Source of the DNA: a virus
Virus record (IMG/VR): IMGVR_UViG_3300026484_000053
Span: 1 to 64,000 of that record
DNA: 64,000 nt
Strand: one strand, 5' to 3'
Shown here piece by piece: positions 31,180-58,177 of the stretch; within the stretch, counting starts at the first letter, position 1; every line of letters starts with the position of its first letter. The position numbers were made by a program, and so were the translations under genes. The notes under the pieces were generated by a model. It was not told the DNA's origin. It ran no database searches and saw only the letters and a program-made list of their open reading frames with translations.

Positions 31180-31400
31180 AAAACACTAAGAACGAAACGA
31201 ACGAAAAATTTAAACTATCGTTGTTTGTAATATACACCTTATTGTATGAATGTCTCATATGGGGACTTACAGCAAGTGTTATTTACTTCTTACAATGGTC
31301 TGAATGGACTGTTTTAGTAGCAATTATTATGAGCAGTGCCCAACTTACACCTAGACATTTTGGATTGAATTATAAAATTAAAGACAAGGAAACAAAATGA
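31161..31400 (+). CDS. Small membrane protein (79 aa)
   Basis: Overlaps the primase end by 19 bp and the Sir2 start by 4 bp. Two hydrophobic segments (about 20-42 and 46-62) with a PRHFGLNYKIKDKE tail. No family recognised. Confidence 0.6.
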   Translation: MPTGILENTKNETNEKFKLSLFVIYTLLYECLIWGLTASVIYFLQWSEWTVLVAIIMSSAQLTPRHFGLNYKIKDKETK

Positions 31401-32161
31401 GTTATACAAAACCAATACCAAGAAGAACAAAAGGATCTGGACCTAAAATAATCGTATTTAGCGGTGCAGGATTAGACGCACCGTCAGGAATAAGAACATT
31501 TAGAGACTCAAATGGATTATGGAATGAGTACAAGATCGAGGATGTATGTACAGAGTCGACGTGGAAAAGAAATTTTGAGGTTGTACATTCTTTCTACAAT
31601 GAAAGAAGAGCAGATTTAGCTAATACTCAACCTAACCATGCGCATTATGTACTAAAGGAACTAGAAGAAGAGTATAAAGAAGATTTTATACACGTGACTA
31701 TGAACGTATCTGACTTAATAGAAAAAGCCAGAGGCAGTGCTTTACATGTGCATGGAGACCTTACAAAAATGGAATGTACAGCATGCGGTCATAAGTGGAC
31801 TATTGGATATAAAAGGTTCGATATTGAAAAACACAGATGCCCTAATTGCGATAGTCTTAAAGGCGTTAAGCCATTTATAGTTTTCTTTGGTGGTATTGCA
31901 CCTATGTACACATATATGAGTAGAGCATTTGAGTATGCCAGTCATCCAGATAGTGTATTTTTAATAATAGGTACGCAAGGAAATGTTGTACCAGTCGAAA
32001 TGATGCTTAATTATACGCCGTGTAAGAAATTCTTATTAAATATGGAGCAAAGTGTAGATATTAATGTAAATAAACTAGGTAATTGTACGGCTTATTATGA
32101 GTCTGTAGAAGACAGTATTGATAAAGTACGAGAATATATAGACAAGAACTTTAAGAGATAA
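31397..32161 (+). CDS. Sir2-family NAD-dependent deacylase
   Basis: 254 aa, full Sir2 core: FSGAGLDAPSGIRTFR, catalytic HVHGD, zinc cysteines CTAC ... CPNC, VFFGGIAP, IIGTQGNVVP. The usual TQNID motif reads TMNVS: the NAD-binding Asn is kept but Gln and Asp are replaced. Sir2 enzymes use NAD to remove acyl groups from lysine, or act as NADases. A regulatory or counter-defence role in the host is possible; the altered motif leaves the activity uncertain. Confidence 0.88.
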   Translation: MSYTKPIPRRTKGSGPKIIVFSGAGLDAPSGIRTFRDSNGLWNEYKIEDVCTESTWKRNFEVVHSFYNERRADLANTQPNHAHYVLKELEEEYKEDFIHVTMNVSDLIEKARGSALHVHGDLTKMECTACGHKWTIGYKRFDIEKHRCPNCDSLKGVKPFIVFFGGIAPMYTYMSRAFEYASHPDSVFLIIGTQGNVVPVEMMLNYTPCKKFLLNMEQSVDINVNKLGNCTAYYESVEDSIDKVREYIDKNFKR

Positions 32162-33563: not shown

Positions 33564-34037
33564 ATGACAGAACACGAAAAACAAGAAAGAGCAATGGCTG
33601 GATTACAGTTTGCTCTTAAAAAGGCAAGCTTTGAAGTGGCTACATTAATGCTAACTGCAAAGATGCCATTCTTCGTTATTATAGACAGAGATTGCTATAA
33701 TACTATACTTGATGAAGATATAGTAGAAGATTATCCACGAATGATGAAAATAGAGATAGATGGCGACACTCTGCATAATTCTTATATGGAAAACGATAAG
33801 GTAATGGTAATCAATACATATTTTGGCGACGATTCATACAGCATTAAAATACAATTTGAAAATGTATTAGGATTATATGCAGGATCTGATGAACTATTAG
33901 TAGCCGTTCCTTATTTTGAACATCAGGCTTTAATTACTGAAGAAAAAGAACTAGCAAAGAACATGTACAGCATTCAAAAAGCAAAAAGTTTTGAAGCTTT
34001 TAGCAAGCATAATGACTTAAGCAAATTCAAAATATAA
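33564..34037 (+). CDS. SspB-like ClpXP adaptor
   Basis: 157 aa. Order and pattern match SspB, mostly the alpha-proteobacterial form: helical start, FFVIIDRD, EDYPRMMKIEI, then a strand pair ending YSIKIQFENVLGLYAGSD and PYFE. SspB delivers ssrA-tagged proteins to ClpX by binding its zinc domain through a short C-terminal motif; here the tail ends LSKFKI, which could serve. Not a close match, so moderate confidence. Significant beside phage SmpB, ClpX and ClpP. Confidence 0.65.
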   Translation: MTEHEKQERAMAGLQFALKKASFEVATLMLTAKMPFFVIIDRDCYNTILDEDIVEDYPRMMKIEIDGDTLHNSYMENDKVMVINTYFGDDSYSIKIQFENVLGLYAGSDELLVAVPYFEHQALITEEKELAKNMYSIQKAKSFEAFSKHNDLSKFKI

Positions 34038-35917: not shown

Positions 35918-36367
35918 ATGAATGACTTATTACATACGTCACCTAGCTTGAAAAAAGAAAGAATCGACACGTATTTTATGGAACATGCTAAATTAGCATC
36001 TACTATGAGTTACTGTAAAAGAAATCTTGTTGGATCTGTTATTGTTAAAGATAACAGAATTATATCTGAAGGTAGAAATGGAACTGTTGAATCTTCAGAT
36101 AATTGCTGCGAAGAATCTTATAATGGAGAGTTTATTACTAAAAATTCAGTAGTGCATGCTGAAGCTAACGCTATCTTATTCGCTGCTAGACATGGTATAA
36201 GCACACTTGGTTGTACGATTTACATTACTCTTAGTCCTTGTATGGAGTGTGCTAAAATGATTATTCAGTCAGGCATTAAAAGAGTAGTTTATAAAGATGA
36301 TTATAGAGATCTTTCAGGAATTGAGTTCCTTAAAGAAAACAATATAATACCAGTGAAGTTAGGATAA
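35918..36367 (+). CDS. cd: dCMP deaminase
   Basis: 149 aa. Zinc-dependent deaminase motifs HAEANAILFA and SPCMECAKMI, as in phage dCMP deaminases. Makes dUMP from dCMP, feeding ThyX (61747). It competes with gp42 for dCMP, so the two set the T to hmC balance. Confidence 0.9.
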   Translation: MNDLLHTSPSLKKERIDTYFMEHAKLASTMSYCKRNLVGSVIVKDNRIISEGRNGTVESSDNCCEESYNGEFITKNSVVHAEANAILFAARHGISTLGCTIYITLSPCMECAKMIIQSGIKRVVYKDDYRDLSGIEFLKENNIIPVKLG

Positions 36368-38883: not shown

Positions 38884-40125
38884 ATGTCACAAAATAAATT
38901 AAGGTTCTTAAATTACGATCAGGAGTTTAAGTTTCAAGGTTTAAAACAAATGAGAGATACAGATGTTTACACTGTAACAGATAATAACTATTTAGCTAAT
39001 TTAACAACTTCCGAAACAGTACTACATGCTGGTAAAAACACATCTGGTCATAAACATGACGGATTAGACGAAGTGTATATGTTTACTAAAGGACATGGAG
39101 ATATCGAAATAGATCAAGTAAGATTTAGTGTAGAAGCAGGCGATATCGTGCATGTTAAAGGCGGCGAATTCCATAAAGTATTTAATACAGGAACTTCTGA
39201 CCTTATATTTGTAGCAATATTTCAAAAGTATACAAGACCAGAAGACGAAGCTATTAGTTCTACTAAAGGTATTCTGTTAGCAGGTGGAAGTGGCACAAGA
39301 TTAAGCCCTTATACTATTACAAGTTCAAAACAAGAGGCAATTGTGTATTCTAAACCAATGATTTATTATCCTTTAAGTACTCTAATGATGGCTGGTATTA
39401 AAGATATTCTTATTATTTCTACTCCTGTGGATCTTCCTAACTATGAGAAGATGTTAGGAGACGGATCTGATCTGGGAATAAACATAGAGTATAAAGTACA
39501 AGAAAATCCAGGTGGAATAGCTGAAGCATTTATCTTAGGTGAAGACTTTATTGATAATCATGATGTAGCACTTATTCTTGGAGATAATCTTTTCTATGGT
39601 GCAGGATTTACTGAAATACTTGAAGGTGCAAGAAGACAGGCGCAAAATGGTAATGGTGTTATATTTGGATATGAAGTTAAAGACCCTGAGAGGTTCGGAG
39701 TGATTGAAGCCCAAGGTTCAAGAATTATCTCTTTAGAAGAAAAGCCACAACATCCTAAGTCAAATATAGCTTCAGTAGGATTATATTTCTTACCTGCAGA
39801 TTGTGTATCAAAAGCAAAGAACATTAAACCTTCTAAAAGAGGCGAACTTGAAATTACAGATGTTCTTAATGAATTTCTATCTGAAGGAAGACTTCAGTTA
39901 AAAGAACTTGGTAGAGGCTTTGCGTATTTCGATTGCGGTACGATTGAGAGCCTATTTGAAGCTTCAAACTTTGTTAGGACGATTGAGAGTTGCACTAATG
40001 CTAAAATAGGATTAATTGAAGAAGTAGCTTATAACAAAGGTTACATCACAGCGGAGCAGCTTAATAAGTGTAAAAAATACGATAAAGTAGAACTTGGTTA
40101 TTACCTAAAATCGATAGCTCAATAG
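38884..40125 (+). CDS. rmlA: Cupin-RmlA fusion: glucose-1-phosphate thymidylyltransferase
   Basis: 413 aa. Residues 1-115: cupin with HKHDGLDEVYMF and GEFHKVFN metal motifs. Residues 125-413: RmlA core with GILLAGGSGTRLSP, SKPMIYYPLSTLM, LGDNLFYG, LEEKPQHPKS, GLYFLP. RmlA makes dTDP-glucose, the precursor for RmlB (42892) and the Fdt enzymes. The cupin could be a sugar-nucleotide isomerase/epimerase-like domain or regulatory. The fused form is unusual. Confidence 0.9.
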   Translation: MSQNKLRFLNYDQEFKFQGLKQMRDTDVYTVTDNNYLANLTTSETVLHAGKNTSGHKHDGLDEVYMFTKGHGDIEIDQVRFSVEAGDIVHVKGGEFHKVFNTGTSDLIFVAIFQKYTRPEDEAISSTKGILLAGGSGTRLSPYTITSSKQEAIVYSKPMIYYPLSTLMMAGIKDILIISTPVDLPNYEKMLGDGSDLGINIEYKVQENPGGIAEAFILGEDFIDNHDVALILGDNLFYGAGFTEILEGARRQAQNGNGVIFGYEVKDPERFGVIEAQGSRIISLEEKPQHPKSNIASVGLYFLPADCVSKAKNIKPSKRGELEITDVLNEFLSEGRLQLKELGRGFAYFDCGTIESLFEASNFVRTIESCTNAKIGLIEEVAYNKGYITAEQLNKCKKYDKVELGYYLKSIAQ

Positions 40126-40141
40126 AGCTGAAAGAGAGATA

Positions 40142-40594
40142 ATTACGGGATCATTAATAATACTATTAATAGTAGCAGCACTAGGATTTGTATTCGGAGA
40201 TGGAGCTTTTGGAGCTAAGCTAGTAAATGCTTTTAATTGGTTAAACACTATGCACTACATTGGGTTTATTATCTTAGGTGTTGTTTCATCTGCGCTGTTT
40301 GTTTTTATGACACTAAGTTCTGGAGCTGTAGCGAGTGATAAATTTGGAAAGCTAGGTACAGCGATAACAGCAGGAGCAGGTGGTATTATAGGAATTGTTA
40401 TTGCTATAATTTTATTAGCTTTTCCAGCCGTTAACATATTTGTAACTTACGAAGTTATGTCACTGATAAACGTTGACGCAACATCGATGTCTGAAATAGG
40501 TCAAGATGCTTGGAATATGATATTCATATACGCTTTAATATTTTTAGCTGCTCTTGGCGTTTCATCTGTTAAGAAGAAGCATTTTAAAGATTAG
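40142..40594 (+). CDS. Membrane protein with non-standard start
   Basis: The frame is open and hydrophobic from 40118, but the first ATG (40250) would cut off a convincing membrane segment (SLIILLIVAALGFVFGDGAF). I place the start at ATT 40142, 5 nt after AAAGAG. Four hydrophobic segments with Gly-rich TAGAGGIIGIV and a short basic tail. Family not recognised; a holin- or transporter-like role cannot be judged. A 9-bp hairpin follows. Confidence 0.5.
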   Translation: MTGSLIILLIVAALGFVFGDGAFGAKLVNAFNWLNTMHYIGFIILGVVSSALFVFMTLSSGAVASDKFGKLGTAITAGAGGIIGIVIAIILLAFPAVNIFVTYEVMSLINVDATSMSEIGQDAWNMIFIYALIFLAALGVSSVKKKHFKD

Positions 40595-40596
40595 AC

Positions 40597-40618
40597 GTGT
40601 ATAACGCACGTTATACAC
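40597..40618 (+). terminator. Terminator-like hairpin
   Basis: GTGTATAAC - GCAC - GTTATACAC, perfect 9-bp stem just after the 40594 stop. Confidence 0.65.
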
Positions 40619-40620
40619 TC

Positions 40621-40628
40621 AATAAATA
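40621..40628 (+). promoter_or_regulatory. Possible late promoter AATAAATA
   Basis: 7 of 8 match to TATAAATA, 23 bp before the ATG at 40652 (same spacing as 4498-4505 to 4527). Fits late expression of the PAAR pair. Confidence 0.45.
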
Positions 40629-40651
40629 ACAATAAAACGTAGGATAAAACA

Positions 40652-41575
40652 ATGGATGGAATAAACATCGTAAACGTAATGAATGACTTAATTACTCATT
40701 ACGGAACAACTTATAACTACACTTGTACAGATAATATTAGTCAAGACGATACAACAATTGTTCTTGACAGTGCTGTCTTCCAGTGTGATGGATCTTTAGT
40801 AGGTCATCCGGTAAGTATAACAATAATAGATAATGTTACTACTGAAGAAGAAGATGACGAAGGTAATACAGTAACTACTACAGAGCAAGTACCCCAAGTT
40901 GTTTTTAGCGGTACCATACAAGAGCACGTATCAGGAACTGAATTCACACTAAGCGGTACTATTAACATCGAAAAGAATGACGATGACTGTGATGGAAGCG
41001 ACTCGTGCCAATTAAATCGAACAGCTACAATAGTTGAGATAGGACTTAATCCTAATGTTCTTAGTTTGTGCAACTCTTGTATAGATCAAATGAATTCTGC
41101 TAACGCTGGTATAATGACAGAGTACTACTTTCCTACAACTCATGATACTTTTACGAAATACGCCGATTGGGCTGAAGAAATGATATCTTATGCAGACTCT
41201 TGGAAAGACCCAGACTTTTTAAACAACAAGATGTCAGATTGGATTGTAAAGATGGAAGCACCGAATACTCCATGCGATTTAATTGGAGAAGCTAATATAA
41301 GTGCTTATATTATTAATATAACATCAATGAAAGATGAAGCGCTACAAATGCAAACTGATATTAAGGCTTACTTCGCTAGGTTAAAAAAGAATATTGTTAT
41401 GTGGAAAGTAGAAGCTAAAATGACGTCAGGACAGCCTTCTGATGGGATTTACGGTTCGTTAAGTTCAGAAAGTAAAGCTAAAGTTGATGACTTGTTAGAT
41501 TACAACGCTGCTCACACAGCTGAAGAATATAATGAATATAAGCAGCAGCTAATGCTTGATCTTAAGATAGACTAA
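40652..41575 (+). CDS. Probable virion/baseplate protein upstream of PAAR
   Basis: 307 aa. The N-terminal beta-rich domain has several Cys (TCTDN, FQCDG, DDDCDGSDSC, SLCNSCID), followed by a helical C-terminal half with Trp/Asp. Its TAA shares one base with the ATG of the PAAR gene, so the products are made together. A tail-spike or tip-adaptor function is inferred from that coupling. Confidence 0.6.
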   Translation: MDGINIVNVMNDLITHYGTTYNYTCTDNISQDDTTIVLDSAVFQCDGSLVGHPVSITIIDNVTTEEEDDEGNTVTTTEQVPQVVFSGTIQEHVSGTEFTLSGTINIEKNDDDCDGSDSCQLNRTATIVEIGLNPNVLSLCNSCIDQMNSANAGIMTEYYFPTTHDTFTKYADWAEEMISYADSWKDPDFLNNKMSDWIVKMEAPNTPCDLIGEANISAYIINITSMKDEALQMQTDIKAYFARLKKNIVMWKVEAKMTSGQPSDGIYGSLSSESKAKVDDLLDYNAAHTAEEYNEYKQQLMLDLKID

Positions 41576-41859
41576 TGCCACCAGTAGTACGATTAGGAGA
41601 TAGCTGCTCAGGATGTTGTGCACCACCTGATGTAGCTGTAGGCGCATCAGGAGATGTGCTTGTAAATGGTATGGGTGCTGTTAGAGTAGGAGATCCTTAT
41701 AATCCACATGCTTGCCCTAAAAGTCCACCTCATGGTAGATCAGGAGCTGCAGGCAGTGGATCAGTAATAGTAAATGGAATGCCAGTTCAGCGAGTAGGAG
41801 ATCCTATAGATTGTGGTGCTTCTTGCGTTGCTGGAAGTGGTAATGTACTTGCTAACTAA
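41575..41859 (+). CDS. PAAR-domain spike-tip protein
   Basis: 94 aa. PAAR repeats: RLGDSCSG, VLVNGMGAVRVGDP, AAGSGSVIVNGMPVQRVGDP, AGSGNVLAN, with Cys/His for metal (CC, HAC, PHG, CGASC). Such proteins sharpen the tip of the tail needle (T4 gp5.4 type). Short, single-domain form. Confidence 0.9.
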   Translation: MPPVVRLGDSCSGCCAPPDVAVGASGDVLVNGMGAVRVGDPYNPHACPKSPPHGRSGAAGSGSVIVNGMPVQRVGDPIDCGASCVAGSGNVLAN

Positions 41860-41876
41860 ATTACGAAAGGTTAAAA

Positions 41877-42197
41877 ATGAATAACAATAATAACAATAAC
41901 AAAGCAGTAGAATGCGACATATTAGACGATATTGAGTGTATAGAAAGACGTGATATTAAAACTATAACAGGTAAAGAACTATTAGATAAAGTACAAATAA
42001 CGTACGATAGTGTTAAAGATCTTATTATAGTAAATACAGATAGCTCTTTGATAATTAAGTGTAATAATGTAGTTATAGCTAGTAATACAGATATAGTGAT
42101 GTTATCTGGAGATGCAGTAGGCGCAAAAGGTAACATACAACTTAATCCTACAGGTTTTAAAGGATTATTTAAAAAGATGCTTAATCTCTTAAATTAA
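41877..42197 (+). CDS. Unknown 106-aa protein
   Basis: Starts with Met and a run of Asn (AAC/AAT repeat). The rest is Ile/Asp-rich beta-type: RRDIKTITGKELLDKVQ, CNNVVIASNTDIVMLSG. No family recognised. Confidence 0.6.
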   Translation: MNNNNNNNKAVECDILDDIECIERRDIKTITGKELLDKVQITYDSVKDLIIVNTDSSLIIKCNNVVIASNTDIVMLSGDAVGAKGNIQLNPTGFKGLFKKMLNLLN

Positions 42198-42225
42198 TAT
42201 TAATTTAATATTAGTATGTTATAAT
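42195..42225 (+). promoter_or_regulatory. Promoter for 42252-47 kb sugar unit
   Basis: TTTAAT and AGTATGTTATAAT (-10 at 42220-42225), then ATACTATCTAAAAATAAAGG. Confidence 0.8.
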
Positions 42226-42251
42226 ATACTATCTAAAAATAAAGGTTCAAC

Positions 42252-42479
42252 ATGAATTTAAGTAAAAAAATAACAATAGGTGCTAAAATAACTAAAAGTG
42301 CATTTAAAATAGGATTGGTTATTAAGCTACCAAAATTAGGTTCTAAATGGACTATAACTGCGATTGAAGATAATGTAGCTACTCTACTAAGAGAAGACGA
42401 GCAAATGGAAAGAAAAATCAATTATGCAAACATAAATAAATCATGGAGAACAGCTTCTGACACGCTGTGTGATAGTTAA
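42252..42479 (+). CDS. Unknown 75-aa protein
   Basis: Strong promoter and AAAGG. LGSKWTITAIEDNVATLL suggests a small beta domain. No family recognised. Confidence 0.65.
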   Translation: MNLSKKITIGAKITKSAFKIGLVIKLPKLGSKWTITAIEDNVATLLREDEQMERKINYANINKSWRTASDTLCDS

Positions 42480-42688
42480 TGAGAAATGATAAGCATTATT
42501 TAAGCATCTTAGAACAGTTTGCTGTAGTTAGTAAAGCCTCAGTATCATTTAAAAATGGATTCTACGTAGTAAAGGTGCAAGGAATTTGTAAAGAACAAAA
42601 AGATAAAATTTTAAATACAAGTTACAAACATAAAAAAGTTTCATACGAAGTTCTTAAAAGAATTAAATACACCATAAATACACTGTAA
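42479..42688 (+). CDS. Unknown 69-aa protein
   Basis: ATG shares the last A of the previous TAA. Lys-rich, alpha/beta. No family recognised. Confidence 0.6.
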   Translation: MRNDKHYLSILEQFAVVSKASVSFKNGFYVVKVQGICKEQKDKILNTSYKHKKVSYEVLKRIKYTINTL

Positions 42689-42711
42689 CTGCACTAGTAA
42701 ATGATAAGTAA

Positions 42712-42876
42712 ATGCTAAGTAACAGAATAAAATTTATGATAACTATGGTAACTATTATGACGTTTGTATTATTGTACATGGTATATACCTTAATAGGGTG
42801 GTTAATTATAGGAGCAGTATTTTTTGGACTTGTTGTATCTACAATGATAACAACATCTCTATTTAACACTAATTAA
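42712..42876 (+). CDS. Small membrane protein (54 aa)
   Basis: ATG to TAA, mostly hydrophobic (about residues 9-48, two TM segments), basic N-terminus (SNRIK). No good RBS. No family recognised. Confidence 0.5.
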   Translation: MLSNRIKFMITMVTIMTFVLLYMVYTLIGWLIIGAVFFGLVVSTMITTSLFNTN

Positions 42877-42891
42877 AAATAAAGGAAAGAA

Positions 42892-43887
42892 ATGGATGTA
42901 GAAAAAGTACGAAGTGCAGAAGGCGTAGAAGGCGTACTATGCGCAGAAAAGGTAATACTTGTTACTGGAGGATATGGTTTTATCGGCAGTAACTTCATTA
43001 GATATATGATCGACACGCATAATTATAAGATAGTTAATGTAGATATTTGCACTTACGCTGCAAATGAAAATAACTTAAATGGTTATACTACATCTCCGCA
43101 ATACGTGGAGTACATAAACGATATATGCGATGCTGATGCTATAAGTAAAATTATTAAAAGAGAAAATGTAACAGATATCATACATTTTGCTGCTGAATCC
43201 CATGTAGATATGTCACTAAAAGATCCTAACTTATTTGTTCGAACAAATGTTCTTGGAACGAGTGTATTATTAGAAGCTTTTAAAAGTAACAATTTAACAG
43301 GTAGGTTCCACCACGTTGGTACTGACGAAGTATACGGTGACTTACCTTTTGACACTTCAATGTTTACAGAAGAAACGCCTTATAACCCTAGTAGTCCTTA
43401 TAGCGCTTCTAAAGCTGCATCTGACATGTTAGTTAAATCTTTTAACAGATCTTTTAACATGAACTGTACTATAAGTAATTGCAGCAATAATTACGGTCCA
43501 AGGCAAGACAATACAAAGCTAATCCCTAAGGTTATTGAAAAAACTATTAAAGGCGAAGCGATTCCTGTTTATGGTACTGGAAGTAATGTAAGAGATTGGC
43601 TGTATGTTTTAGATCATTGTAAAGCTATAGATGTTATTTTTCACAAAGCGCAACCTGGTAGTCAATACCTTATAGGTGGAAGAAATGAAAGAACAAATCT
43701 TGACATAATTCATAATATATTTGACATTATGAAGAGCGGCGACATTGAATTTGTAGAAGACAGAGCAGGACATGATAGAAGATACGCTATAAATGCAGCA
43801 AAACTTGAAAATGAACTTGGTTGGAAAGCTGAAGAAACATTCGAAACTGGTATTGTGAAAACGATAAAGTGGTATAAAAGGAGATAA
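42892..43887 (+). CDS. rmlB: dTDP-glucose 4,6-dehydratase (RmlB)
   Basis: 331 aa. NAD-binding VTGGYGFIGSNF, active-site region GTDEVYGDL, and YSASKAASD (YxxxK). Converts dTDP-glucose to dTDP-4-keto-6-deoxyglucose, the branch point for FdtA. An EGVEGV micro-repeat is at the N-terminus. First clear gene of the sugar cluster. Confidence 0.93.
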   Translation: MDVEKVRSAEGVEGVLCAEKVILVTGGYGFIGSNFIRYMIDTHNYKIVNVDICTYAANENNLNGYTTSPQYVEYINDICDADAISKIIKRENVTDIIHFAAESHVDMSLKDPNLFVRTNVLGTSVLLEAFKSNNLTGRFHHVGTDEVYGDLPFDTSMFTEETPYNPSSPYSASKAASDMLVKSFNRSFNMNCTISNCSNNYGPRQDNTKLIPKVIEKTIKGEAIPVYGTGSNVRDWLYVLDHCKAIDVIFHKAQPGSQYLIGGRNERTNLDIIHNIFDIMKSGDIEFVEDRAGHDRRYAINAAKLENELGWKAEETFETGIVKTIKWYKRR

Positions 43888-43888
43888 A

Positions 43889-44350
43889 ATGCGTGGACAA
43901 ATATTACAATATTTGTTAGACAGTGATAAGAAGATTAAAGGTGCTGTATTAATAGGTTCTAGATCTATTAATGTACATGCAGAAAAGTCTGATTGGGATT
44001 TCTGTGTAGACATTGAAATGTGGGATAAGATAACTTATGATGTTGAAGTAGAGTATGGTGGATCAGGTCAAGACACTAATATTATGAGAAATATTGATTC
44101 TTGCAAGTTTACAGAAAACGGTGAAGTAATTAATTTAATATTATTTGATGAATACGGTATGACTAATCAAAGACGTATAAACGCTATTATGAAAAATTTA
44201 CAAGATGCTGTTAGCTATAAAAATGTTAGGCATCAGATAAACGAGGCTATAACTGATCTTATTTACGATGGTAGGCCTATAAGAGGTGAAGGTCATAATA
44301 GTGCGTTAAGAAGTTTAACAATACAAGACGATGACGAAGTACCATTTTAG
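43889..44350 (+). CDS. Pol-beta-type nucleotidyltransferase
   Basis: 153 aa. VLIGSRSINVHAEKSDWDFCVD is the GS...D-x-D nucleotidyltransferase pattern with a variation in the spacing. Substrate unknown. Lies inside the sugar cluster (1-bp gap to rmlB). Confidence 0.65.
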   Translation: MRGQILQYLLDSDKKIKGAVLIGSRSINVHAEKSDWDFCVDIEMWDKITYDVEVEYGGSGQDTNIMRNIDSCKFTENGEVINLILFDEYGMTNQRRINAIMKNLQDAVSYKNVRHQINEAITDLIYDGRPIRGEGHNSALRSLTIQDDDEVPF

Positions 44351-44359
44351 GAGATATAA

Positions 44360-45439
44360 ATGAACGAGAATAAACCTCAAATAATATCGATGCACCAGAA
44401 GATAACTTCTTTTAAGAAAGGACAATCCTACACGCATTTACATACAGAGCATATAGCTTCTGTAATAGGTGCAGATGTAAAGTATGACGGAATATACGAT
44501 GATAAGTCGCCTACTTACGTTTACTTAGGTGCAGATTACTTTCCGGTGCTGCCTAATGGAAAGGAGAAAGCTATAAATCTTTACGGTGGACTTACAGAAG
44601 CTTATTATAAGTACTTCGAAAAGTTCGCGTTAAATAAAGCTACGTCTTATATATTAGATTACCCTGTACCTAAAGGATTTTTAAATGCTTTAGTAAAAAG
44701 AGCTGAAAATAAAAGTGCAAGTACATATAAAGGTGCTGAAGTAGAAGTATTAAAAGAATTACGAAATAAGTGCTTAAATTCTACAGTAGTTACCCAAGAA
44801 GATCTTGTAACAGAATCTAATTCTAATATGATGTTTGGCGACTCGCATTCAATTAGTATGACACCAGGTGGAGTACCTTGTACTAAAATAGGTGGAAGAA
44901 CTTTATTCGGTGCAGTTAAAAATAACGTTATTGTGAACGACTTTGGGAAAACTAAAGCTAAACATATTCTTCTTATGATGGGAAGCATAGATATTAGACA
45001 CCACATGTTTAGACAAGAAGATCCTTTTGGTAATATGAAAGAACTTCTTAATGCATATATGAAACAATGCATAGAGCTAGTAAAAAATGGTAAAAGCGTA
45101 GAAATATGCGCACCTGTGCCTATAGAAACAGAAACTAGGAAATTCAGTAAGGATAATGCTTATCCACCAAGAAGTGGAATATTCTTTCACGGTTCTAGAG
45201 AAGAAAGATTGTCATTAACATTATTCTTTATAGACGAAATACGAAGACTTATAGCTCATTTTGGCTATAATGAATCTATAACTCTTTCTACATATCCAGA
45301 AGAATGGTATACAATGAATCCAGCTGATTATGAAACTAAAATGGAAAGAGTAAAAGGAAGTCACGTTAGTATGCTTAATTGCAGAAGACTTAACTTTGGA
45401 AAAATAGGAGATGAAAATGATGAACACGAAGAATGGTAA
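44360..45439 (+). CDS. SGNH/GDSL-like hydrolase
   Basis: 359 aa. MMFGDSHSIS (block I Ser) followed by LLMMGSIDIRHHMF in the position of the GxND block. An N-terminal region of about 150 aa precedes it. SGNH enzymes act on esters, often O-acetyl or acyl groups on sugars. Its place in the cluster suggests an action on the modified sugar or its precursor; not shown by sequence. Confidence 0.6.
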   Translation: MNENKPQIISMHQKITSFKKGQSYTHLHTEHIASVIGADVKYDGIYDDKSPTYVYLGADYFPVLPNGKEKAINLYGGLTEAYYKYFEKFALNKATSYILDYPVPKGFLNALVKRAENKSASTYKGAEVEVLKELRNKCLNSTVVTQEDLVTESNSNMMFGDSHSISMTPGGVPCTKIGGRTLFGAVKNNVIVNDFGKTKAKHILLMMGSIDIRHHMFRQEDPFGNMKELLNAYMKQCIELVKNGKSVEICAPVPIETETRKFSKDNAYPPRSGIFFHGSREERLSLTLFFIDEIRRLIAHFGYNESITLSTYPEEWYTMNPADYETKMERVKGSHVSMLNCRRLNFGKIGDENDEHEEW

Positions 45440-45845
45440 GGTAGAGAATTCTCTACCTGAAATTACAAATTTTAATGTACTTGGAGACAATCGAGGTAAT
45501 TTAGTAGCAATAGAGCAAAATAAAGATGTACCGTTTGATATTAGAAGAGTATTTTACGTATACGGTACGTCAGATGAGCCGAGAGGTTTTCATGCGCATC
45601 ACTTAACTAAGCAAGCGTTAATATGCTTACAAGGTTCTGTTACAATTGAATTAGACAATGGTACAGATAAAAGAGAGTACTTATTAGACTCTAAAGATAA
45701 AATGCTTATACAAGATAAAATGGTATGGGGAGTTAATAAGAACTTTAGTAAAGATTGCATATTGTTAGTACTTTCGAATATGTCATACGTTAAAGAAGAT
45801 TATATCACTGACTATGAAAAATTTAAATCAATAACGGCGCACTAG
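45417..45845 (+). CDS. fdtA: FdtA-type dTDP-4-keto-6-deoxyglucose 3,4-ketoisomerase
   Basis: Start at 45417 (AGGAG 6 nt upstream; overlaps the 44360 gene). Cupin of the FdtA/QdtA/WxcM type: [53 protein letters not shown]. Moves the 4-keto group to C3. FdtA and QdtA differ in stereochemistry at C4; I cannot tell which. Confidence 0.9.
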
Positions 45846-46348
45846 TGAGAGGTGCAAACGTTGACATAACTTGCAGTATACATTGCAGCTCTGATGTTAG
45901 TAAAGATGCGCAAGTTGGTAAATTCACTAACATTTGGCAGTTTTGCACTATTATGCGTGGAGCAAGAGTAGGTTCAAGATGTAATATTAACATGAATGTT
46001 CTTGTAGAGACAGGTGGAATAGTAGGAGATAATTGTACTATTAAACCAGGTGTGCAAATTTGGGATGGAATAGTTATAGAAGATGACGTTTTTATAGGTC
46101 CTAATGCGACGTTTACTAATGACGTTTATCCTAAAAATAAAGTGCATTTAAAAGAAAACGAGTCGTATCCTGTAACTACAGTTTGTAAAGGAGCTTCAAT
46201 AGGTGCTAATGTAACTATACTACCTGGTATAACAATTGGAGAGAATTCACTTATTGCAGCTGGTAGTATAGTTACAAAAGACGTGCCTGCAAATAGTGTT
46301 TATAGAAATGAAGTAAAAAGTGTTGTTACTTTAATTAATAAAGACTAA
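45845..46348 (+). CDS. fdtC: dTDP-3-amino-3,6-dideoxyhexose 3-N-acetyltransferase (FdtC/QdtC)
   Basis: GTG start 0 bp after the FdtA gene. Left-handed beta-helix with hexapeptide repeats ([71 protein letters not shown]). Acetylates the 3-amino group made by FdtB. Confidence 0.88.
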
Positions 46349-46564
46349 TATTTGGTAAAGTTTTTGATAAAAATTGGTAGAAAATTGGTAAAGTACTTAT
46401 AAAATATTACTTAAATGTAAAGTAGTTTGTTAATTAAAAATACGAAGTAACGCAGGTAGTACTCTTGGGCTAAACCGTTTAATTTTTAAATTAAAACCGT
46501 ATGAGCAGTTCTGGTGTTACGCTGCGTAAAAGCATACTGCGCGGCACCTTTAAAGATATAATTT

Positions 46565-46580
46565 ATGGCTGTATTATAAT
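46565..46580 (+). promoter_or_regulatory. Possible promoter in the sugar-cluster gap
   Basis: GTATTATAAT with -10 at 46575-46580. Confidence 0.35.
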
Positions 46581-46659
46581 ATGTGTAATATATGCATATG
46601 TAATATATGTAATATCTTTAACAGCGCTGCGTAACAGTGCAGTTTAACAGTGCAGTTTA

Positions 46660-46689
46660 ACAACCATTTAATAATAACTATGTTATAAT
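46660..46689 (+). promoter_or_regulatory. Promoter for fdtB-glycosyltransferase
   Basis: TTTAAT then CTATGTTATAAT (-10 at 46684-46689). Confidence 0.8.
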
Positions 46690-46738
46690 AACATAAATAA
46701 TAACGTAAATACAGCAAAATACAACTTAAAGGAATAAT

Positions 46739-47863
46739 ATGCAAGAAGAAAAAGTAAAGTTTTTAGACATTGGTGCTATAAACTCAAGAGATGAAGCACA
46801 GCTACAAGATGCAGCTAACAGAGTAATTAAATCAGGATGGTACTTAAACGGTAAAGAAAATGAACTATTTGGTAAAGAATTTTCTGAAATTATTGGTACT
46901 AATTATTGCGTACCTTTAGGTAATGGATTAGAAGCACTAGAGATTACTATTAGGGCATATAAAGAATTAGGTTTGTTTAAAGACAATGACGAGATTCTTG
47001 TACCAGCTAACACTTATATTGCTACAATATTAGCGATATCTGAAAATGGTTTAGTACCTGTTCTTATTGAACCAGGCGAAGATCATCTTATAGACGTAAA
47101 CAGATTAGAAAACGAAATTAACGATAAAACAGTTTGCATTTTACCTGTTCACCTTTATGGTAAAACGTGCGACATGAAAACCATAAATGATATCGCTTAC
47201 AGATACGATTTAATTGTTATAGAAGATTGCGCACAGTCGCATTATAGTAAAGACGATCAAGGTAATGTATCTGGTAGTACGTCAGATGTGGGTTGCTTTA
47301 GCTTTTACCCAGGTAAGAATCTTGGTGCGTTAGGTGACTCAGGTTGCATTTGTACTGACGATTCTCAAGTTGCTCAAATGGTTAAAACTATTTGTAACTA
47401 TGGTAGTAAGAAGAAATACTATAATGAAGTAAAAGGTGTAAACTCAAGAATGGATGAAATTCAAGCAGCGTTCTTAAGAGTTAAATTAACAAGATTAAGA
47501 TCAGATACAGCACTTAGACAAAAAGTAGCGCAATTCTACATGAATAATATTGAAAACGTAGATTGTTTACCTAAAATTGGTACTTTAAGTCAACATGCTT
47601 TTCATTTGTTTGTATTAACGATTCAAAATAGAGAAGCATTTATTGAATTTTTAGCTGCTAAAGGCATTGAAACACTTATACATTATCCTGTTGCACCGTT
47701 TAATCAACAATGCTATAAAGATGAATTCTTTCCAAAGGATTTTCCTATAACAGCTGAAATACACGATAAAATAATTTCAATACCTTTAAGCCCTGTAATA
47801 ACACTTAAAGAGCAACAAAGAGTAGTAGATGCTATTAACTCTTATTTTAAAGAGTCTTTATAA
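46739..47863 (+). CDS. fdtB: FdtB-type PLP aminotransferase
   Basis: 374 aa, DegT/DnrJ/EryC1 family: LPVHLYGKTCDMK, IEDCAQSHYS, SFYPGKNLGALGDSGC with the PLP lysine, and SRMDEIQAA. Transaminates dTDP-3-keto-6-deoxyhexose at C3. Its TAA shares the final A with the ATG of the glycosyltransferase, so the two are translationally coupled. Confidence 0.93.
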   Translation: MQEEKVKFLDIGAINSRDEAQLQDAANRVIKSGWYLNGKENELFGKEFSEIIGTNYCVPLGNGLEALEITIRAYKELGLFKDNDEILVPANTYIATILAISENGLVPVLIEPGEDHLIDVNRLENEINDKTVCILPVHLYGKTCDMKTINDIAYRYDLIVIEDCAQSHYSKDDQGNVSGSTSDVGCFSFYPGKNLGALGDSGCICTDDSQVAQMVKTICNYGSKKKYYNEVKGVNSRMDEIQAAFLRVKLTRLRSDTALRQKVAQFYMNNIENVDCLPKIGTLSQHAFHLFVLTIQNREAFIEFLAAKGIETLIHYPVAPFNQQCYKDEFFPKDFPITAEIHDKIISIPLSPVITLKEQQRVVDAINSYFKESL

Positions 47864-49074
47864 TGAATATACTTTTAATGAAAATAGGTGGCAGAATTAA
47901 CACCGGTACTAGAAAACCTACTAATGGTAATGCTGGAGAGAATAAACTTATAGTAGAATTATTTTTAAAAGGTGGCCATAATGTGACGTTATGCACTAAA
48001 TACGTAAAAGGAGATGATCCTGAGACTTATTTCGGATCTAATAAAGTCTCTGCAGTTGATCTGGCATTAATTGATGACGTTAATAATATAGATATGAGTA
48101 AGTATGACAAGCTGGTAGTTATTAATGGAAGCAAGAATTTCTTTGGTGGACAAGATGGTGGAATATGCGCTACGTATAAAGTTCTTAACACATTTCCTAA
48201 AGAAGTAATATTCTTCTATACAGACCCTCTATTAACGCTTTCTCAAGTTTGGAATGATAAATTCGATGAAGCACGTAATCCAGGATGGGGTACAAAATGG
48301 ACTGAATCTGATCTTCTTATTACAAGAAAAGACATAACTCTCTTAGCAGCATCTAAAGGTACTGATCTTACAAAGAAACCATTCGTTGCTAAAGGAATAT
48401 TTACAGACTATAAAGAAATAATTGAATTTGAATGGCAAAAAGCTGTTATATTTGGTAATTCTGTACATGCTAATCCATCTGAAGAAAAGCAAATAGACTT
48501 AATTTATGGTGGATTTTACAGAGGTGGTGCAAGAAGATCGCAAATGATTGAATTTATGTTTGATACAGATTATAATGCTGCATTTTTTGGTAAAATTGAA
48601 GAACATGTATTTAAACTTACTAAAAAAGAGATTGCATCTATTAAAAAATATCCTTCGTTTAAAAAAGAGCTTGGAGACTGGGATTTCTGGAAGAAAGAAA
48701 CTAATAAAGCATACGCTACTATTGTATTTGCTGAAGATACATATTGCGACGCTATTGTTACTATGAGAGTTTATGCAGCAGCATTGAGTAATGTTATAGT
48801 TTTCATTGAAGACAAATATGATTCTAAACACACTATTTTTCCAAATGATACATTCAGAGGCTTTAATTACGTTAAAGATAAAGAAGATTTGTCTAGAAAG
48901 ATGAAGATAATTAAATCATTTACTACAGAGCAATATAATAAAATGTGTAAATCACAGATTAAACAACTTAGAAACGGTACTAAAGATTTATTTAAAGATT
49001 TTAATTCAGCTCTTGGATTAACATTTACAGAGCTTGAAGTTAAAGAATCTTCTGATGAGTTTAGCGACTGGTAA
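47863..49074 (+). CDS. DNA glycosyltransferase, T4 BGT homologue
   Basis: 403 aa with clear T4 beta-glucosyltransferase colinearity: DKLVVINGSKNFFGG, FFYTDPLLTLSQVW, IDLIYGGFYRGGARRSQM, EFMFDTDYNAAFFG, TMRVYAAALSN, DSKH. Catalytic/donor residues kept: E26 (T4 E22), D121 (D100), R220 and R224 (R191, R195), R302 (R269). T4 E272, recalled as the UDP-ribose contact, is Ala305 here. Predicted to transfer a sugar to hmC in DNA. Coupling to FdtB points to a dTDP-amino-sugar donor (inference). Confidence 0.9.
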   Translation: MNILLMKIGGRINTGTRKPTNGNAGENKLIVELFLKGGHNVTLCTKYVKGDDPETYFGSNKVSAVDLALIDDVNNIDMSKYDKLVVINGSKNFFGGQDGGICATYKVLNTFPKEVIFFYTDPLLTLSQVWNDKFDEARNPGWGTKWTESDLLITRKDITLLAASKGTDLTKKPFVAKGIFTDYKEIIEFEWQKAVIFGNSVHANPSEEKQIDLIYGGFYRGGARRSQMIEFMFDTDYNAAFFGKIEEHVFKLTKKEIASIKKYPSFKKELGDWDFWKKETNKAYATIVFAEDTYCDAIVTMRVYAAALSNVIVFIEDKYDSKHTIFPNDTFRGFNYVKDKEDLSRKMKIIKSFTTEQYNKMCKSQIKQLRNGTKDLFKDFNSALGLTFTELEVKESSDEFSDW

Positions 49075-52807: not shown

Positions 52808-53455
52808 ATGATACTATTACCACAAATTATTGAAGATTCAGGAAGAGGAAAGAGAGCGTATGACTTACCAAGTAAGTTATTCGAAAGCAACATTATAGTT
52901 ATTGAAGGTGAAATTTCAGAAGAATCTATGCAAGCAGCTAAGATGCAACTATTGTATTTAGATAAAAAGCCACAATGTACAGAGATTGAAATTTACATTT
53001 CATCAGGTGGAGGATCAGTGTATGCTGGTAATGGTTTAATAGACCTTATACAGTTAATAGATACTCCAGTTAATACTACTTGTACTGGTATGATAGCATC
53101 TATGGGTACTCAAATATTTGCATCTGGTACTGGAACTAGAAGATTAATGCCTAGAAGTAGAGTTATGATTCACAGTGTAGGTTCAGGAGCAAGTGGTAAA
53201 TACCAAGACTTACTAATAGAAATGAAAGAAACTGAGTACTTACAAAAGCAGCTTATGCGTGATTTATCTTCGTTTACTAAAGGTAAGACTACTTATGCTA
53301 AAATGTGCAAGTTAACAGATAGAGATAATTGGCTTAATTCAGAAGAAGCTATTGAAATAGGTATTGCTGATGAAATTTTAGAAACGAGAGATCAAAGAAA
53401 AGAAAACGCAGCAATTAGAGCAAACGCAGCAAACGCAGCTAAGGGTGATAAATAA
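52808..53455 (+). CDS. clpP: ClpP protease
   Basis: 215 aa. ClpP fold and triad: Ser98 in GMIASMG, His122 in VMIHSVG, Asp173 in TDRDNWL. The usual MIHQP is MIHSV. Signature ISSGGGSVYAG present. Forms the proteolytic barrel that takes substrates from ClpX (phage 21153 or host). An AAN-type 9-bp repeat is at the C-terminus. Confidence 0.93.
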   Translation: MILLPQIIEDSGRGKRAYDLPSKLFESNIIVIEGEISEESMQAAKMQLLYLDKKPQCTEIEIYISSGGGSVYAGNGLIDLIQLIDTPVNTTCTGMIASMGTQIFASGTGTRRLMPRSRVMIHSVGSGASGKYQDLLIEMKETEYLQKQLMRDLSSFTKGKTTYAKMCKLTDRDNWLNSEEAIEIGIADEILETRDQRKENAAIRANAANAAKGDK

Positions 53456-55056: not shown

Positions 55057-56697
55057 ATGGCAAAAACGGCAAAAACGGGAAATAACAAAGTTATGAAGAA
55101 AATAAGAAAAGACAATGGAACTACGCAGGATTACAATCCACAAAAATTCCATGAGAAAGTATTCTTTGCACTAGAAGGCTTAAACACTCTGAGTGCATCA
55201 GAAATAGAAATGCAGGCAGCACCTATGATTGTTGATGGTAGTACAAGTAAAGACATCCAAAAAGCACTTGTAGAGGCTACAGCTGATATGATTAGTGAGG
55301 ATTTACCTGAAGCTGAAATAGCAGCAGCGAGATTGTTAAATCAAAGCATTAGAAAAGAAGTATACGGTAAATACGAAGTGCCTACTTTACTTGAAACAGT
55401 TAAGAAAAATATATCTGAAAAAATATACGACGGTAAGTACCTGTTCGATCACTACACAGAAGCAGAAGTACAGAAATTCGGTGAGTACATAAAATACGAC
55501 AGAGACGATAAATTCGTTTATTCTGGACTTAAGAAAACTAAAGATAGTTACTTAGTTAAGAAATATGGTAAACTTCATGAAACTCCTCAAGAAATGTTTA
55601 TGATGATTAACATGTTCGCATTTGCTAAGTATGAAGGTAAAGAGAGAGAGAAATGGGTAAAAGAAGGTTATAATATCTTAAGTAACTTTGAAGCTAGCTT
55701 ACCTACTCCAATTATGATTCAACTTAGAACAATGTTTAGAAGATTCGTGTCATGTAACTTAATACCTTATGGTGATTCTAAAGAAACAATCGCTAACTCA
55801 GCTAAATCTATGCTTACGTTAGTAGCAGGCGGCGCAGGTTTAGGAATTGGTACTGGAGATATTAGAGGACTTGACGCAGATATTGATAATGGTAGAATCA
55901 AGCATACTGGTTTACAACCTATACTTAAAGCTGCTGAGAAGTCAAGTAAAGCATTTGTACAACCAGATAGAGATGGAAGCTGCACAGCGTACTATCCATT
56001 TTATCATGTAGAAATAGAACATATTATGGTTATGGGTAATAATAAAGGTACTGAAGATACTAGAGTTAGAGATATCGACCATGCTATTATTTTTAATGAC
56101 TTATTCTTTGAAAGATATGCTAAAGACGAAGACATTACGCTATTCTTTATGAATGACGTAAAAGATTTGCAAAGTTACAACGGTTACTCAAAAGAATTTA
56201 AAGAGAAATACGAACATTACGAAAGAACTGTACCTAAAAGAAAACAAAAGAAAGTATCAGCTAAAAAGATATTTAATAGATTCTTAGATGAGCAATTTTT
56301 ACAAAGTAGAGAATATTGTTTATTTGCTGACGAATTCCAGAGCCATAGTAGTTTTGATATTCCACTTAAAATCTCAAATCTTTGCGTAAAAGGAGACACG
56401 AGTATTAATATTAAATATAACGACACTTATAGCGTTATTCGAATAGATGAACTACAAAGCTATTTAAATAAATTTGATGTGCAAGTTTTAAGTAGAAATA
56501 TTGATACTGCAGTGAATGAGTATAAAATTATTGAAGACTTCGCTATGACAAACCCTTGCGCTGAATTACTAAAAATAACAGATGAAAATAGTGGTAATTA
56601 CATAGAATGTACGTTAGAACATAAAGTATGGACTGAAAACAGAGGATACGTTGAAGCCCAACATTTAGTTCATGATGATGTTTTAAATATACTATAG
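55057..56697 (+). CDS. nrdA-N: NrdA N-terminal half fused to N-terminal split-intein (IntN)
   Basis: 546 aa. ATP cone at 15-100, the FVSCNLI cysteine, and the core up to KISNL at residue 442. From Cys443 (base 56383) the sequence is an intein N-part: CVKGDTSINIK (block A) and IECTLEHKVWTENRGY (block B, T-x2-H), ending HDDVLNIL-stop, 104 aa. The partner at 56918 starts with the intein C-part. The insertion sits exactly at the catalytic thiyl Cys (E. coli C439, NLCLEI). Confidence 0.93.
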   Translation: MAKTAKTGNNKVMKKIRKDNGTTQDYNPQKFHEKVFFALEGLNTLSASEIEMQAAPMIVDGSTSKDIQKALVEATADMISEDLPEAEIAAARLLNQSIRKEVYGKYEVPTLLETVKKNISEKIYDGKYLFDHYTEAEVQKFGEYIKYDRDDKFVYSGLKKTKDSYLVKKYGKLHETPQEMFMMINMFAFAKYEGKEREKWVKEGYNILSNFEASLPTPIMIQLRTMFRRFVSCNLIPYGDSKETIANSAKSMLTLVAGGAGLGIGTGDIRGLDADIDNGRIKHTGLQPILKAAEKSSKAFVQPDRDGSCTAYYPFYHVEIEHIMVMGNNKGTEDTRVRDIDHAIIFNDLFFERYAKDEDITLFFMNDVKDLQSYNGYSKEFKEKYEHYERTVPKRKQKKVSAKKIFNRFLDEQFLQSREYCLFADEFQSHSSFDIPLKISNLCVKGDTSINIKYNDTYSVIRIDELQSYLNKFDVQVLSRNIDTAVNEYKIIEDFAMTNPCAELLKITDENSGNYIECTLEHKVWTENRGYVEAQHLVHDDVLNIL

Positions 56698-56917: not shown

Positions 56918-58177
56918 ATGATAAAGATTGAAAGAATATTAAAAAGAGAGAAAGTGTACGACATTACTGTAGAAGATAACCATAATTTTTATGCTAATAA
57001 CATATTGATACATAATTGTACAGAAATATCGGTACCTATCTTTCCATTAAGAGGTATTTCTATCAGAAGAAATATTAAATTCGATACTGCTCAAGACAGA
57101 GAGCTATACTATGAACTTAGAACTAGTGCCTATTTTCACCAAATAGATGAAAAAGAGCTTAATAAGAAAGTTAAGCAAATGGCTACGTTAGTTAAATTCG
57201 TATCGCAAGATATAAATGCTGAAGTAAATGAAAGCGAAGATTATGATTATTTTGACATAACAGGATTAGTTAATTTAAGTGAAATTGGAGTTTGTATACT
57301 TGGTGGAATTAACGTCGGCCATTGTAAAAGCAACAAAAGATTAGAAATAGTATCAGAGTATCTTGTTAGATTACTTGAAGAGCTAATCGATTATATGGTA
57401 TGGGATTTACCAGAAGCAGAAAAAGCTGCTAAAATGAGAAGAACACTTGGTATTGGATTCAGCGATATTTTCCATGATTTAGCTGTTAACAAAAAATTCT
57501 ACAATACAAGAGAAGGTAGACAATTCATAAGTGATAAAATAGAGTTATGCTCATATGCTATGATTAGAACTTCAGTTGAATTAGCCAAGGAAAAAGGCAA
57601 GTGTCAACTATTCAGCGATACGAAGTACGCTAAAGGTATATTACCTGTAGATACGTATAATAAAAACGTTGATGAGTTAGTAGACGTGTCAAAATTAGAT
57701 TGGCAATGGCTTAGAGAACAAGTACTTAAACATGGTATGAGACACAGCACGCTAATGGCAAACGCACCGTTTGGAAGTTCTAGCATTGTATCTAACTCTA
57801 CACCAGGATTAGAACCACCAAGAGGTATTGAAACTACTAAGAAGAAAGTCACTAAGTTGGTGCCTGACATTAAGAGTAGCAGCAAATATTATACTACAGC
57901 TTGGGGAGATGATTTTAATAATAGCGATTATTTTATGTTCGTTGCAGTATTCCAAAAATGGATGGATCAGACTATAAGTACTAACAAATACGTTAACTTA
58001 CTTAAAGAAGAAAATGGTAAAGTTAAAAAATCTACTCTTATTAAAGAAATGCTTGTGGCTTTATATTTTGGTCTGAAAACAGTATATTACTCAAATATTA
58101 GATCTAACGATGCCAAGGATGGAGAAGATCTGGAAGAAGAGAAAGAATCATGCTCTGGTGGTGGTTGTGAAGTATAA
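56918..58177 (+). CDS. nrdA-C: C-terminal split-intein (IntC) fused to NrdA C-terminal half
   Basis: 419 aa. Residues 1-33: IntC with VYDITVEDNHNFYANN (block F) and ILIHN (block G); Cys34 is the +1 extein residue and becomes the catalytic Cys in CTEISVP. Then NrdA C-part: GVCILGGINVG (E. coli C462), LGIGFSDIFHDL, ANAPFGSSSIVSNSTPG, and tail CSGGGCEV (redox Cys pair). Joins with 55057 by trans-splicing to a protein of about 828 aa. Confidence 0.93.
   Translation: MIKIERILKREKVYDITVEDNHNFYANNILIHNCTEISVPIFPLRGISIRRNIKFDTAQDRELYYELRTSAYFHQIDEKELNKKVKQMATLVKFVSQDINAEVNESEDYDYFDITGLVNLSEIGVCILGGINVGHCKSNKRLEIVSEYLVRLLEELIDYMVWDLPEAEKAAKMRRTLGIGFSDIFHDLAVNKKFYNTREGRQFISDKIELCSYAMIRTSVELAKEKGKCQLFSDTKYAKGILPVDTYNKNVDELVDVSKLDWQWLREQVLKHGMRHSTLMANAPFGSSSIVSNSTPGLEPPRGIETTKKKVTKLVPDIKSSSKYYTTAWGDDFNNSDYFMFVAVFQKWMDQTISTNKYVNLLKEENGKVKKSTLIKEMLVALYFGLKTVYYSNIRSNDAKDGEDLEEEKESCSGGGCEV

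Follow-up and report, generated by a model that had tools for sequence, protein, structure and literature searches.

A phage-encoded amino-sugar pathway coupled to a homologue of the T4 DNA beta-glucosyltransferase and its predicted role in hydroxymethylcytosine glycosylation

The virus record IMGVR_UViG_3300026484_000053 is 193,700 bases (193.7 kb) long, and the window analysed here is its first 64 kb. This window encodes a pathway for an amino sugar linked to deoxythymidine diphosphate (dTDP), together with genes for making and glycosylating 5-hydroxymethylcytosine (hmC) in DNA, and we describe these genes and the modification that they may direct. Open reading frames (ORFs) of the record match the capsid, portal, sheath, tube, terminase, clamp loader, primase, helicase, topoisomerase, ligase and gp42 proteins of T4; by these matches to structural and replication proteins the source virus is therefore a remote T4-like myovirus, and no close DNA matches to it were found among phage records. 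In T4, gp42 serves hmC synthesis and a beta-glucosyltransferase (BGT) glucosylates hmC with uridine diphosphate (UDP)-glucose from the host. An original prediction made from the window sequence proposed that this phage supplies its BGT homologue with an amino-sugar donor of its own making.

Genes for an amino sugar and for hmC

The genes on which this proposal depends are as follows.

14138–14668, + strand: deoxynucleoside monophosphate (dNMP) kinase of the thymidylate-kinase family (Pfam PF02223, 1.2e-10)
14671–15357, + strand: gp42, dCMP 5-hydroxymethylase (T4 gp42, 1.7e-77)
38884–40125, + strand: cupin–RmlA fusion, glucose-1-phosphate thymidylyltransferase (Pfam NTP_transferase 1.7e-63, Cupin_2 2.9e-10)
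42892–43887, + strand: RmlB, dTDP-glucose 4,6-dehydratase (TIGR01181, 419.8 bits against a cut-off of 365.1; PDB 6bi4, 3.7e-94)
45411–45845, + strand: FdtA, dTDP-4-oxo-6-deoxyglucose 3,4-ketoisomerase (PF05523, 1.5e-41)
45845–46348, + strand: FdtC, hexapeptide N-acetyltransferase of the FdtD/FdtC type (PDB 4mzu 5.5e-46, 7s43 1e-45)
46349–46738, + strand: gap of 390 non-coding bp between FdtC and FdtB
46739–47863, + strand: FdtB, pyridoxal phosphate-dependent 3-aminotransferase of the DegT family (PF01041, 2.3e-90)
47863–49074, + strand: BGT homologue, predicted DNA hmC glycosyltransferase (PF09198, 1.1e-13; 51.7 bits, cut-off 27)

Every enzyme of a pathway to dTDP-3-acetamido-3,6-dideoxyhexose is represented, from RmlA and RmlB through the 3,4-ketoisomerase and 3-aminotransferase to the N-acetyltransferase, and these family assignments rest on matches far beyond chance. 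RmlA, placed at 38884 in the original prediction, exceeds the equivalog cut-off of TIGR01207 in NCBIfam and matches PDB 4ho0 (1.9e-97); to this we add its fusion to an N-terminal cupin domain spanning about residues 1–125. The coordinates and families proposed for RmlB, FdtC and FdtB also hold in Pfam, NCBIfam and PDB comparisons, as does the identity of FdtA, whose ORF opens at 45411, the start given earlier (45417) being a later in-frame ATG.

Comparisons with solved structures place the ketoisomerase, the aminotransferase and the acetyltransferase each nearer to Fdt-type than to Qdt-type enzymes. FdtA, which retains the FHAH motif, matches 2pa7 (FdtA, 3e-32) better than 4zu7 (QdtA, 1.1e-20); FdtC, which begins with GTG, matches QdtC (3fs8) more weakly, at 5.3e-13; and FdtB, with its Schiff-base lysine motif YPGKN intact, matches 7n63 (4e-102) and 5u1z (1.9e-96) ahead of QdtB (3frk, 7.9e-83). 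Of the two sugars first proposed, 3-acetamido-3,6-dideoxygalactose (Fuc3NAc) and its gluco counterpart Qui3NAc, we moderately favour Fuc3NAc as the product. A residue pair that we take to separate FdtA from QdtA gives a mixed answer, with Arg at the position of FdtA Arg17 and, as the second residue, Gly in the window.

Several of these genes are tightly coupled. The stop of FdtA overlaps the GTG of FdtC by one base, and, exactly as had been noted, the FdtB stop TAA (47861–47863) overlaps the BGT start ATG (47863) by one base too. Elsewhere the spacing is looser: the 2.8 kb between RmlA and RmlB hold a PAAR gene resembling T4 gp5.4, short genes of no known identity also break up the cassette, and the gap between FdtC and FdtB yielded no Rfam match above gathering thresholds and, in the part of it that was tested, nothing unusual in its folding. 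Relatives of FdtB at 42–48% identity are spread over many phyla in GTDB genomes, most of them in Bacteroidota and others in Spirochaetota, Gammaproteobacteria and further groups, with no clear donor or host among them.

The prediction that gp42, a dNMP kinase and a T4 BGT homologue accompany this pathway is borne out by family, PDB and residue comparisons. The best-matching structure for gp42 is 1b49 (1.4e-74), with thymidylate synthases only near 1e-10. At position 179 of the T4 enzyme, Asp marks cytosine-acting and Asn uracil-acting hydroxymethylases (PMC5175136); in our alignment the window gp42 retains this Asp and the catalytic Cys motif, and we reject action on dUMP on the strength of the cytosine-type Asp. 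The dNMP kinase directly upstream of gp42, which has a counterpart in the hmC operon of a related phage (locus L172), is a candidate 5-hydroxymethyl-dCMP (hmdCMP) kinase. A second dNMP kinase, of the T4 gp1 type, lies outside the window at 184989–185615 of the record (PF21448, 1.1e-13).

The BGT homologue also matches PHROG 7922 (4e-43) and PDB 1bgt (2.4e-33). Its AlphaFold model has a predicted local distance difference test (pLDDT) score of 82, and the best PDB match by Foldseek is T4 BGT with UDP-glucose (1j39; E 2.4e-24, TMq 0.74). The T4 residues Glu22, Asp100 (the catalytic base), Arg191, Arg195 and Arg269 are retained as E26, D121, R220, R224 and R302. Similarly, the DNA-insertion loop that serves base flipping in the T4 structures, Asn70-Phe-Phe/Tyr-Gly-Gly, is present as NFFGG. 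No member of the window BGT subfamily was found in GTDB genomes. A weak BGT match at 154549–155007 of the record was set aside as chance, as it is helical-looking with a hydrophobic tail and has none of the BGT motifs.

A second operon and the donor site of BGT

Scanning viral contigs with the window BGT as a single sequence found nothing, and an alignment-based scan was needed: with a BGT alignment, IMG/VR yielded 45 BGT loci. Two of them, L020 and L021, come from two metagenomes and are 99.9% identical over 12.2 kb, and thus represent one species. Their operon runs gp42, cupin–RmlA, FdtA, FdtC, FdtB, BGT; neighbouring genes overlap or meet at one-base junctions, except where 50 bp precede FdtA, and the contig also carries T4-like genes for topoisomerase, RNase H and ligase. 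BGT, FdtB, FdtA and cupin–RmlA are 44–59% identical between the window and these loci (59% for the cupin–RmlA fusion, in L021), so the linkage of BGT to the sugar genes would have been kept for a long time or formed twice. Of all the evidence for an amino sugar made for hmC, we give this operon the most weight. At the second position of the FdtA/QdtA residue pair, L021 has Arg. The gene just upstream of gp42 in L021 (L021:5440-5766) is dATP/dGTP diphosphohydrolase-like, and the one just downstream of BGT (L021:10816-12018) is C5-cytosine-methylase-like.

The window BGT differs from the T4 enzyme at the donor site. In T4 BGT, Glu272 presumably touches the hydroxyl groups on the ribose of UDP. 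In dTDP the ribose is replaced by deoxyribose, which has no 2'-hydroxyl, and the loss of this Glu therefore fits a dTDP donor. The window protein has Ala305 at this position and Phe at that of T4 Ser189, and both changes recur in L020/L021. Our BGT alignment holds 42 sequences, 41 of which cover the Glu272 position; among these distinct proteins Glu is retained in 38, the exceptions being the window (Ala), L020/L021 (Ala) and L014/L063 (Gln). The last of these, from a huge phage, is the only other locus found with both BGT and a DegT aminotransferase, the two lying about 8 kb apart. The BGT of L172 keeps Glu272, and that phage has SGNH and cupin genes as in the window phage and lacks Fdt genes. 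With Glu272 replaced, we describe the window protein as a BGT-family enzyme and do not file it as a UDP-glucose enzyme.

Ribose contact by a Glu at this site has been described for Glu311 of the T4 alpha-glucosyltransferase (AGT), as a general feature of GT-B enzymes (PMC6024577), and shown for Glu321 of DGD2 (PMC12022483). BGT Glu272 aligns with AGT Glu311 by ungapped motif reading rather than by superposition, and hhalign comparison of BGT and AGT profiles gave no useful alignment. In a tree of the family the window BGT groups with that of L020, and the amino-sugar label needs two separate changes. The association between this label and the Glu272 position has a Fisher p of 9e-5 when sequences are counted, and of about 0.015 when two origins are assumed against ten clades.

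Because it has the acceptor side and the catalytic base of T4 BGT, the enzyme could be imagined to glucosylate hmC from host UDP-glucose as in T4, leaving the dTDP-amino sugar to be added to that glucose as a second sugar or to enter a host polysaccharide, for example; the existence of viral FdtA and FdtB genes apart from BGT would agree with such a division. We consider this unlikely, since Glu272 is replaced in both Fdt-bearing phages, the sugar genes of L021 are all enclosed by gp42 and BGT, their starts being coupled, and the GT2, GT4, GT2_4 and T4 AGT searches recognised no second glycosyltransferase in the 193.7-kb record.

Other BGT loci carry different sugar genes. At L172:10344-13887 and L014:2265-11257, BGT is near a CofD/YvcK-like protein, whose C-terminal part appears HAD-like by eye, and a MobA/GlmU-like NTP transferase, which apparently constitute another phage-made donor cassette. 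The presence of these genes beside BGT suggests that phages with BGT-type enzymes exchange donor-making cassettes. In Enterococcus phage VPE25 (L015:9652-10614), a gene annotated as nucleotide sugar synthetase-like is situated one gene after BGT.

Other transferases, timing and accessory genes

Domain searches of the record in which controls worked detected neither GT2 nor GT4 nor GT2_4 domains. A phmmer search of the record with T4 AGT found no homologue, RB69 ORF003c and Thanatos TH1_060 not being among the queries, and the search with the Pfam AGT family (PF11440) was run without a positive control. The Pfam scans took in about 50 of the record's roughly 230 ORFs, and an unusual transferase could therefore have been missed.

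The T4-type late promoter motif TATAAATA occurs at 43 sites in the record, mostly 25–65 bases upstream of virion genes, and for 30 of the 43 the start of an ORF is no more than 120 bases away. It is depleted in the window (5 sites against 18.8 expected), and the + strand has none from 4498 to 69828. The absence of such a promoter at the cassette suggests that its genes are probably not expressed late; the same strand carries genes for dCMP deaminase and ribonucleotide reductase.

RmlA, RmlB and Fdt genes usually serve O-antigen or S-layer glycans. The sugar might accordingly be destined for virion proteins or the host surface, in O-antigen change or superinfection exclusion, with BGT an incidental neighbour, and the interruption of the window cassette by the PAAR gene and short unknown genes would be in keeping with this. 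The lack of both another recognised glycosyltransferase, including the GT2 and GT4 types, and a late promoter for the cassette weakens such readings without removing them, and the linkage to BGT is repeated in a distant phage, where gp42 joins it as well. On this evidence a virion or surface destination appears quite improbable.

Four further genes of the window were annotated as follows.

25360–25812, + strand: MazG-like nucleotide pyrophosphatase (PHROG 715, 3.4e-17)
35918–36367, + strand: dCMP deaminase (T4 cd, 1.5e-26)
43889–44350, + strand: polymerase-beta-like nucleotidyltransferase (PF18765, 1.7e-5, just under the curated cut-off)
44360–45439, + strand: SGNH-like protein (GDSH and GSxDIRHH motifs by eye; no Pfam family)

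The MazG-like protein is a candidate for removing dCTP, and together with the deaminase it may shape the dCTP pool. The SGNH-like protein, for which AlphaFold modelling alone gives a pLDDT of 38, has distant relatives in Aeromonas T4-like phages and a homologue of 36% identity between the dNMP kinase and gp42 of L172, where the gene row reads dNMP kinase, SGNH-like protein, gp42, stand-alone cupin, BGT. This row makes it very likely that the modification module includes the SGNH-like gene at 44360 as well as the cupin domain. The homologue in Aeromonas phage 44RR2.8t (L089:4423-6810) has a C-terminal extension with a sub-threshold match to the helical domain of the 5-hmdU DNA kinase (PF18723, 0.0036).

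Since the hmC module is accompanied by SGNH-like and cupin proteins, the sugar on the DNA might be something other than N-acetylated Fuc3 or Qui3, such as a free 3-amino sugar, a different N-acyl derivative or a product altered by the SGNH or cupin proteins. FdtC is nearest to N-acetyltransferases of the FdtD/FdtC type, and we judge such variants very improbable.

Elsewhere in the record, NrdA is encoded by two ORFs (window 55057-56697 and 56918-58177) separated by 220 bp, which could reflect an intron, an intein remnant or a frameshift, and DNA polymerase gp43 by two overlapping ORFs (record 163636-165963 and 165953-166915). The window also encodes ClpX-like (21153-22442), SspB-like (33564-34037, below cut-off) and ClpP-like (52808-53455) proteins, a possible phage proteolysis set, and a SIR2-family protein (31397-32161; Pfam 2.3e-31). 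Three proteins with an identical odd set of Pfam matches (RHS repeat, B3, Gp19), at 6047-7078, 22838-23995 and 29212-29988, are probably repeat proteins.

Proposed modification and known systems

From the gene content and retained residues we infer the following enzyme activities. The gp42 protein would make hmdCMP, phage kinases would bring it to the triphosphate pool, and hmC would replace cytosine. RmlA would join glucose-1-phosphate to dTTP and RmlB would convert the product to dTDP-4-oxo-6-deoxyglucose, which FdtA would isomerise to the 3-oxo sugar, FdtB transaminate at C3 and FdtC N-acetylate, giving dTDP-3-acetamido-3,6-dideoxyhexose, more likely of the D-Fuc3NAc form. The BGT homologue would then flip hmC out of the DNA and transfer the amino sugar by inversion, as T4 BGT does, to yield beta-linked (3-acetamido-3,6-dideoxyhexosyl)oxymethyl-dC. 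Such a sugar would probably guard the DNA against bacterial DNA-cutting defences.

Several observations weigh against this proposal. The window cassette is interrupted by the 2.8-kb stretch with the PAAR gene and by the gap of 390 bp, and 23 kb separate it from gp42. The linkage of Fdt genes to BGT is seen in only two phages (three contigs), both known only from metagenomes, and the 19.8-kb contig of L021 has no RmlB, an enzyme that may come from the host or be encoded elsewhere in the phage. Other viral contigs carry FdtA or FdtB without BGT or gp42, so the sugar genes alone prove nothing and can serve other ends. A search for a dUTPase_2-type dCTPase found none, leaving the MazG-like protein as a mere candidate. 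With at most two independent changes, the association at Glu272 is suggestive and small in number. Furthermore, a Glu-to-Ala change at the equivalent site inactivates the GT-B enzyme teSPS (cited in PMC12022483), so the change in the window BGT could mean altered or lost activity.

The L020/L021 operon, the Glu272-to-Ala change, the cytosine-type Asp of gp42 and the lack of another recognised glycosyltransferase nonetheless support the donor first proposed, and we consider it likely, with good confidence, that hmC in the DNA is glycosylated by the BGT homologue from phage-made dTDP-3-acetamido-3,6-dideoxyhexose. We also favour, somewhat less firmly, the broader view that a BGT-family enzyme has switched from UDP-glucose to this donor, and that BGT phages swap donor cassettes and retune a donor-site residue. 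If so, an amino deoxysugar built on dTDP joins the known phage DNA decorations, a textbook enzyme is seen to change its donor, and a candidate tool becomes available to place an N-acetylated amino sugar on hmC. Such a modification could also be relevant to the differences in range among the type IV restriction enzymes and DNA glycosylases directed at glucosyl- or arabinosyl-hmC.

The claim of novelty stands in part. No dTDP-sugar or amino-sugar modification of phage DNA was found in the literature searched, which leaves out most subscription papers; phage-made donors for DNA glycosylation as such are already known or proposed, in RB69 and Thanatos.

The window phage resembles T4 in its gp42 type, BGT fold, catalytic base, phosphate-binding arginines and DNA-insertion loop, and departs from it in making a dTDP-amino sugar and in the changes of Glu272 to Ala and Ser189 to Phe. 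It shares with RB69 a T4-like genome, hmC (predicted in the window phage) and candidate genes for its own donor. RB69 carries arabinosyl-hmC and candidate genes for UDP-arabinose, a pentose donor, and its proposed transferase ORF003c remotely resembles AGT and phage-G gp306 and is not a BGT (PMC6024577). Shewanella phage Thanatos likewise has a sugar nucleotidylyltransferase beside DNA glycosylation genes, whereas its modification is pentose-cytosine and it has a UDP-sugar pyrophosphorylase, Fdt-type genes not being mentioned in the passages of PMC12838424 consulted. Yersinia phage YerA41 combines heavily modified DNA, of a kind not identified in that work, with a cluster of sugar-biosynthesis-like genes from other families (PMC7354516). 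Each enzyme of the bacterial dTDP-Fuc3NAc pathway of S-layer and O-antigen glycans is present in the window, nearest to Fdt-type structures, and the differences are its setting in a phage, the fusion of RmlA to a cupin domain and the coupling to a predicted DNA-modifying transferase in place of one that builds glycans.

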